Shown here: positions 21,667 through 22,920 of the stretch, piece by piece
Position numbering within the stretch: position 1 is the stretch's first letter
Layout: every line of letters starts with the position of its first letter
Assembly: GCA_947462685.1 (NCBI GenBank)
Contig: CANHPL010000004.1
Span: forward strand, 50,850 to 114,849
DNA length: 64,000 bases
Direction: 5' to 3'
Origin: Burkholderiaceae bacterium
GTDB lineage: Bacteria > Pseudomonadota > Gammaproteobacteria > Burkholderiales > Burkholderiaceae
The notes under the pieces: model-generated
The model's database searches: none
Seen by the model: only the letters and a program-made list of their open reading frames with translations
Told to the model about the DNA's origin: nothing
Program-made: the position numbers and the translations under genes

Positions 21667-22878
21667 GTGAGTTTAATTTTGCAAGAACTAAATCAAGTAT
21701 TACCAAAGTGGTTGCTGGAATGGGTGTCTAGTGGAGTATTGGATTGGTCTGGATGGGGAATTTTTTGGTATCTCATTATCATGACCCACATCACCATTGC
21801 TAGTGTGACCATTTATTTACATCGACACCAAGCGCATCGAGCCCTCGACTTACACCCCGCTGTATCACACTTTTTCCGTTTTTGGCTGTGGTTAACAACC
21901 GGAATGGTCACCAAAGAATGGGCGGCGATACATCGTAAACATCACGCTAAATGTGAAACTGTTGATGACCCTCATAGTCCTCAAGTTTTAGGGATCCATA
22001 CAGTGATGTGGCGCGGAGCTGATTTATATAAATTAGAAGTTAATAATCAAGAAACTATGGATAAATTTGGTCACGGCACACCAGATGATTGGGTGGAACA
22101 TCATATTTATTCTTATTACCGTTGGCAAGGCGTTGGTTTAATGATGGTTATTAACCTTCTCCTGTTTGGAGCGATTGGCGGATTTATTTGGGCCATTCAA
22201 ATGATTTGGATTCCCATAACAGCTGCCGGAATTATTAATGGTATCGGGCATTTTTGGGGTTATCGAAATTATGACTGCGAAGATGCCTCAAGAAATATCT
22301 TGCCCTTAGGCTTGATTATCGGTGGCGAAGAATTGCACAATAATCATCACACGTTCGCTACAAGTGCTAAGTTATCAAGTAAGTGGTATGAAATTGATAT
22401 TGGTTGGTTATATATTTGCGGATTACAACTTTTGAAGTTAGCACATGTCAAAAAGACGATCCCCAAAATCCGCCTCACGCAAACCCAAGCCATCAATGAA
22501 GAACTCGTTAAAACAGTGATCAAACATCGTTACGAGCTTATGGCGCAGTATAGTAAGACTTTGAAAGAGGCCTTTAGGCAGGAAGTTAAAGTCATGAGGG
22601 ATCTTGCAAAAGAGTTTGCTGACAATCATTATTGGTTATGTAAGGATGAAAACAAATTAAGCTCCCTTCATAAAACCCGTTTAGAAACTTTGATGAGTGC
22701 CAATGATCGTATGAAGCATTTGATAGAAATGCGAAGAGAGTTAACACAAATTTGGTCAAGATCCTCTGCAACTGGCGATCAATTACTTGAGCAGTTACAT
22801 CATTGGTGCATTAAAGCTGAGAAAAGTAATAATCAGTTCTTGCAACTGTTTTCTCAAAAATTAAAAACTCTGGCATAA
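21667..22878 (+). CDS. Membrane fatty acid desaturase with long C-terminal extension
   Basis: This is a membrane-bound di-iron desaturase. The three histidine boxes are complete: HRHQAH at 52-57, HRKHH at 89-93 and HNNHH at 224-228. Long hydrophobic segments lie between them, as in acyl-CoA delta-9 desaturases. The start is a GTG. At 403 residues it is well over 100 longer than the minimal desaturase. From about residue 265 it continues as a soluble, helical, charged region (HRYELMAQYSKTLKEAF, then LSSLHKTRLETLM and QLHHWCIKAEKS) whose pattern resembles the C-terminal part of ISL3-type transposases. A terminator follows directly. Confidence 0.9.
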   Translation: MSLILQELNQVLPKWLLEWVSSGVLDWSGWGIFWYLIIMTHITIASVTIYLHRHQAHRALDLHPAVSHFFRFWLWLTTGMVTKEWAAIHRKHHAKCETVDDPHSPQVLGIHTVMWRGADLYKLEVNNQETMDKFGHGTPDDWVEHHIYSYYRWQGVGLMMVINLLLFGAIGGFIWAIQMIWIPITAAGIINGIGHFWGYRNYDCEDASRNILPLGLIIGGEELHNNHHTFATSAKLSSKWYEIDIGWLYICGLQLLKLAHVKKTIPKIRLTQTQAINEELVKTVIKHRYELMAQYSKTLKEAFRQEVKVMRDLAKEFADNHYWLCKDENKLSSLHKTRLETLMSANDRMKHLIEMRRELTQIWSRSSATGDQLLEQLHHWCIKAEKSNNQFLQLFSQKLKTLA

Positions 22879-22903
22879 AAAAACCGCACATCGTGCGGTT
22901 TTT
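22879..22903 (+). terminator. Bidirectional terminator between desaturase and rpmG
   Basis: The arms AAAAACCGCAC and GTGCGGTTTTT surround a three-base loop, with A and T runs on the outside. It serves both the desaturase and the convergent ribosomal protein genes. Confidence 0.92.
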
Positions 22904-22920
22904 GAACAATTGAAAAGCAA

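Follow-up and report, generated by a model that had tools for sequence, protein, structure and literature searches.

Characterized enzymes related to the DesA family of membrane fatty acid desaturases (NCBIfam NF049918) include DesA of Pseudomonas aeruginosa (PA0286) and PA3FAD9 of Pseudomonas sp. A3. One paper describes P. aeruginosa DesA as an sn-2 phospholipid delta-9 desaturase (PMC10269440), and delta-9 desaturation is also reported for the A3 enzyme in PMC4975390. According to that report, PA3FAD9 has 394 amino acids, the N-terminus MWYNGFLDLSAWQLVAVTLLMT and a first histidine box at residues 34 to 39, and it was active in Escherichia coli. SCD1 (structures 4ymk, 4zyo, and 6wf2) shares the core and the histidine boxes with DesA; its substrate is acyl-CoA, that of P. 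aeruginosa DesA phospholipid (PMC10269440). As for redox partners, PMC10634369 states that the reductase DesC serves DesB and that Pseudomonas putida DesA, even when supplied with DesC, still did not support the growth of a fabA deletion strain; no identification of the electron donor of DesA was found in the literature.

The second group of described relatives consists of transposases. Those of the ISL3 family (IS204/IS1001/IS1096/IS1165; PF01610, NF033550) carry between the catalytic residues D2 and E an insertion domain homologous to the C-terminal tail of DesA and identical to it in the order of the helices. For ISCth4, too, an alpha-helical insertion in this position has been described, along with a C/DxxH motif that matters for catalysis (PMC7780238). 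The fusion is already catalogued in NCBIfam, where NF049918 stands beside NF049919, "DesA/ISL3 alpha bundle tail domain," and it is visible in Pfam. The name and type of NF049919 convey a shared domain only and are silent on its place in the transposase fold, the direction of transfer, and its role. The available parts of PMC4975390, PMC10269440, and PMC10634369 do not mention the tail, and a literature search whose coverage left out most subscription journals returned no paper on an ISL3-desaturase fusion; no experiments on the tail were found in the literature. The original prediction had supposed that the role of the fusion was undescribed; NCBIfam already has a name for the pairing, so this is true of the role of the tail and not of the fusion itself.

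The window analyzed here, a stretch of 64,000 nucleotides from a Burkholderiaceae bacterium, encodes such a protein, with the following features:

21667..22878, + strand: whole open reading frame of a DesA-family fatty acid desaturase, 403 amino acids, GTG start (NF049918, 584 bits)
21733..22452, + strand: membrane desaturase core, residues ~23 to 262, with three histidine boxes (Pfam FA_desaturase, SCD1 4zyo/4ymk, Foldseek, motifs)
22453..22512, + strand: linker (residues 263 to 282) that includes the beginning of the first tail helix; helix 278 to 286 starts here (secondary structure, start of the hhalign alignment)
22513..22875, + strand: homologue, as judged by sequence and predicted helices, of the ISL3 insertion domain, residues 283 to 403 (PF01610, NF049919 at 284 to 401, tblastn, hhalign, AF2 helices)
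22525..22536, + strand: degenerate DxxH remnant HRYE, residues 287 to 290 (alignment, motif counts)
22789..22866, + strand: best-conserved tail motif, WC..AE.SG...L..F...L together with the residues immediately preceding it, 375 to 400 (alignments)

Residues 23 to 402 of this protein matched NF049918 with 584.4 bits (cutoff, 400), and its architecture and histidine boxes were the same as those of the DesA family. The three boxes of a membrane desaturase were found at residues 52 to 57 (HRHQAH), 89 to 93 (HRKHH), and 224 to 228 (HNNHH), Pfam FA_desaturase matched residues 29 to 232 (E value, 1.2e-13), the SCD1 structures 4zyo and 4ymk were similar over residues 30 to 269 (E value, 2e-10), and Foldseek returned SCD1 for the full DesA model with a probability of 1.00. 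These boundaries are in agreement with the predicted completion of the core by about residue 260. Some 140 further helical residues had been expected, and predicted helices indeed spanned residues 278 to 399, in a separate helical region extending about 134 residues beyond the core; the motifs singled out in it (WLCKDE, RLETLM, RRELTQIW, and WCIKAEKS) were all present. The AF2 model of the window protein had a mean pLDDT of 86.5 and a pTM of 0.80, with residues ~191 to 230 poorly predicted. Compared with the PDB and BFVD by Foldseek, the full model yielded desaturase cores only and no match to the tail; nothing in SCD1 matches it either. Among the BFVD entries, a tail-less tailed-phage desaturase of 233 amino acids (A0A6J5LCH2) resembled the DesA model in the core region (TM-score normalized to the length of the phage protein, 0.83; identity, 27%).

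Within the family, the window protein is a divergent representative from the Burkholderiaceae, 45 to 46% identical to the Pseudomonas-type homologue L082. The latter has 394 amino acids, the N-terminus MWYNGFLDLSPWQLVAVTLVLT, which PA3FAD9 matches, a first histidine box at residues 34 to 39 as in PA3FAD9, and a tail scoring 113 bits. Since L082 is an evident relative of PA3FAD9, DesA proteins bearing the tail are very probably real desaturases. The window protein is an ordinary chromosomal DesA and, most likely, acts as a phospholipid delta-9 desaturase. Directly after its stop codon lies a terminator-like hairpin (aaaccgcacatcgtgcggttttt, window positions 22880 to 22905), which was absent from the consensus scan list.

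Residues 262 to 403, searched alone as the original prediction had proposed, matched Pfam DDE_Tnp_ISL3 (PF01610) with 30.1 bits (cutoff, 23; E value, 5e-7). Within the whole protein the match covered residues 287 to 398 with 26.5 bits, and other DesA proteins gave far stronger matches (E values of 4.4e-15 and 2.5e-14). NF049919 scored 94.5 bits with the whole protein (cutoff, 30) and 97.9 bits with the tail alone, coinciding exactly with the tail (model positions 2 to 120 of 122). A tail-only profile made from 30 DesA tail sequences (alignment A1) retrieved full-length ISL3 transposases that lack any desaturase portion, with a best E value among the open reading frames of the loci of 7e-20 (L065). 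Even the single tail sequence of the window, compared by tblastn with 72,556 plasmid records, found a transposase of Octadecabacter arcticus annotated as ISL3 (29.5% identity; E value, 2e-9), and hhalign aligned the tail with ISL3 with a probability of 98.6% and a score of 106. The best-conserved motif of the DesA tail is common to the nearest ISL3 transposases as W...A..SGI..L..FA..L. A sequence search of the PDB with the tail alone gave no significant match. Judged from the sequence comparisons, the homology of the tail to ISL3 transposases, over residues ~283 to 403 (from nucleotide ~22513), is real; residues 263 to 282 have no transposase homology of their own.

The alignment also defined the part of the transposase concerned. 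In L065, the residues D161, D216, and E373 were assigned as the DDE triad because of their near-invariance (conservation among 37 ISL3 sequences) and their places in the modeled RNase H fold (AF2; mean pLDDT, 89; pTM, 0.79). The tail aligned by hhalign with L065 residues 233 to 352, a segment that begins at the strand following D2 and stops short of the E helix; all three catalytic residues lie outside it. Thus, the tail is the alpha-helical insertion domain located between the catalytic D2 and E of an ISL3 transposase. The fusion of a transposase fragment to a membrane desaturase, as originally predicted, is borne out by Pfam DDE_Tnp_ISL3, hhalign, and the helix-by-helix correspondence of the AF2 models; its attribution to the C-terminal end of the transposase was rejected, given that the aligned part stops before the catalytic E373. 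In the separate models, eight predicted helices of the tail (288 to 309, 311 to 316, 322 to 325, 328 to 330, 333 to 345, 347 to 364, 370 to 385, and 390 to 399) matched those of the L065 insertion domain (238 to 260, 265 to 272, 275 to 279, 282 to 284, 288 to 300, 302 to 317, 323 to 339, and 343 to 354) in identical order and with similar lengths. The window tail therefore has both the profile similarity and the helix order of the ISL3 insertion domain, and the plain coiled coil that had been named as the alternative was not seen.

The rest of the transposase is missing. The zinc ribbon and helix-turn-helix (HTH) N-terminal domains present in L065 are absent from DesA, as are the RNase H core with its DDE residues and the DxxH motif, in whose place the window protein has HRYE. 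The full-length ISL3 family NF033550 gave only 28 bits (profile positions 210 to 321 of 370) against a cutoff of 180. The DxxH motif was found in 42 of 42 ISL3 sequences (D237xxH240 in L065), whereas its initial D occurred in none of 153 distinct DesA proteins, in which the first position was mostly N (108 sequences) or H (40 sequences), with N-R-Y-E/D as the usual reading. Its histidine was kept in three of the 153 (L044, L078, and L117; NxxH-like), possibly as a trace of the ancestral motif. Since the aligned segment excludes the DDE residues and DxxH has been lost, the DesA tail is an insertion domain without any known catalytic residue. The solved structure nearest to the ISL3 model was ISCth4, of the IS256 family (6xg8 and 6xgx), with its helical insertion at the same place and its C/DxxH motif (PMC7780238); that insertion has four helices and is a remote counterpart of the DesA tail, likened to it through the ISL3 model and not through the DesA sequence. 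Two ISL3 transposases of 574 and 527 amino acids (L111, 1359 to 3080, and L064, 1492 to 3072, both on the - strand) carried extra IS21/IS481-like sequence inside the insertion domain, indicating that the ISL3 bundle has itself received an insertion.

A match to the window protein was found in 39 of 41 relatives, and orthologues across the order carried the tail. A recent insertion of an IS element into desA at this locus was rejected, because its own genome contains no ISL3 transposase and the orthologues throughout the order have the tail. Among 399 Pseudomonadota genomes, 61 loci encoded desaturase cores at least 52% identical to that of the window, and the tail was present in every one of them, without a single tail-less orthologue; the loci exceeding the DesA cutoff through the tail also numbered 61. 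The next desaturases in those genomes had about 31% core identity and no tail. All 61 loci belonged to the class of the window (in a GTDB-style grouping that joins beta- and gammaproteobacteria). The tail thus marks the DesA family as a whole throughout the class to which Pseudomonas belongs: the long desaturases predicted for other Burkholderiales do occur there, but they extend well beyond that order. Two loci deserve comment. One is a contig titled Thermoflexus hugenholtzii MAG (L131), whose DesA shares 66% identity with the window protein; the contig is probably betaproteobacterial and misbinned. The open frame of another DesA copy (L045, 1501 to 3375, - strand) extends about 230 residues upstream without a Pfam match, which probably represents an upstream open frame only.

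The tail profile matched 87 of the 399 Pseudomonadota genomes, through DesA and ISL3 elements alike, as well as Corynebacterium and Methanosarcina. ISL3 transposases were more widespread, occurring on Enterococcus, Lactobacillus, Bifidobacterium, and Nostoc plasmids (Bacillota, Actinomycetota, and Cyanobacteriota). In a domain tree without an outgroup, 21 DesA tails formed one clade (support, 100/99) as against 36 ISL3 sequences. Together with the presence of the tail in 61 of 61 cores, this clade argues for a single origin, in concordance with the prediction of an old, retained fusion. Rooting with ISAon1 transposases found no member above the cutoff in the genomes searched, and as the tree has no outgroup, the direction of transfer rests on distribution and on the place of the domain in the transposase fold. 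The nearest desaturases are tail-less and ISL3 occurs in several phyla, so that a desaturase is likely to have captured the domain from a transposase once, ahead of the spread of DesA through its class. Alternatively, the bundle might have begun as a mobile domain in its own right, or as the tail of a desaturase, and found its way into both proteins, and the root of the tree could fall on the one branch that divides DesA tails from ISL3. Such an origin is unlikely: within the transposase fold the bundle follows the last strand of the core and precedes the E helix, a position in which other DDE transposases (the IS256-type ISCth4 and Hermes) also have helical insertions (PMC7780238), ISL3 is spread over several bacterial phyla while tail-bearing DesA was found in one class only, three DesA proteins show the trace of the DxxH histidine, and no third architecture appeared among the loci classified, all of which were DesA or ISL3.

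A captured domain might have kept its former activity, making DesA a membrane-tethered regulator or a DNA anchor with a nucleic-acid-binding tail. The net charge would be compatible with this, having a median of +7 in DesA tails and in ISL3 insertion domains alike, and transposase insertion domains work beside DNA (PMC7780238). Nevertheless, DxxH, the catalytic residues, and the zinc ribbon and HTH with which ISL3 binds DNA are all absent, and a tail-bearing relative worked in E. coli, where its native partners are lacking (PMC4975390), making such a function quite improbable.

Selection on the tail was estimated from 31 congeneric orthologue pairs (dS < 2). The median dN/dS was 0.049 for the tail and 0.029 for the core, values that are rough, most pairs being close to saturation at synonymous sites, though far below 1. 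At the level of sequence, purifying selection on the tail (dN/dS, ~0.05) is thus shown. A harmless read-through extension that was simply never lost would fit the lower conservation of the tail (mean pairwise identity, 39%, compared to 67% for the core), but such a neutral vestige is highly improbable in view of this dN/dS, the retention of the tail in all 61 cores, and the virtual invariance of W380, A384, E385, and S387 across 153 DesA proteins. The data point to the tail as a kept working part of DesA, derived from one old capture.

There is virtually no chance that the tail is a nonspecific bundle of charged helices resembling ISL3 in composition only, as its helical, charged sequence and weak unrelated matches (CREPT, ZapG-like, and NUP214; E values of 0.07 to 2.4) might suggest, since hhalign controls scored far below 106 (reversed tail, 16.4; reversed ISL3, 15.3; 20 column shuffles, 10.0 to 15.7; desaturase head, 24.2), the DesA-tail profile matches were reciprocal, the single-sequence tblastn search reached an ISL3 transposase, and the helices corresponded one to one and in order in separate AF2 models.

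The termini of membrane desaturases are expected on the cytosolic side. Cytosolic termini are also predicted for the Pseudomonas A3 desaturase in PMC4975390. From this location, the fold, and the strict retention of the tail, we infer with moderate confidence a packing or docking role, its basis being location, conservation, and a model with a pTM of 0.80. The ~120 C-terminal residues of DesA are an ISL3 insertion domain, which would no longer act on DNA but would fold beside the desaturase core, on its cytosolic side, as a module for packing or docking; the bundle might, for example, stabilize the enzyme or receive the electron donor of DesA. Taken as a whole, this explanation, namely, DesA with an ISL3 insertion domain acquired in one old capture and serving as such a module, is one that we hold to be probable. 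More tentatively, DesA may require the bundle as a working part, be it for activity or for the recognition of the electron donor or the lipid substrate, a proposal that we put forward with less than even confidence. If so, a lipid enzyme would have made an insertion domain of a DDE transposase into an organ of its own, a reuse of which we found no description.

To what was already catalogued, the present analysis adds the exact correspondence between the tail and the insertion domain, the finding that DxxH has been lost, the lack of tail-less orthologues in the sample, and an estimate of selection. Because the helical domain was captured from a transposase, the transposase labels that DesA proteins bear in databases reflect true homology and not error, although they do not imply transposase activity. 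Part of a transposase is thus present in a whole family of membrane desaturases, to which the studied DesA of Pseudomonas apparently belongs; here, clearly, a protein module from a mobile element has become fixed in lipid metabolism.
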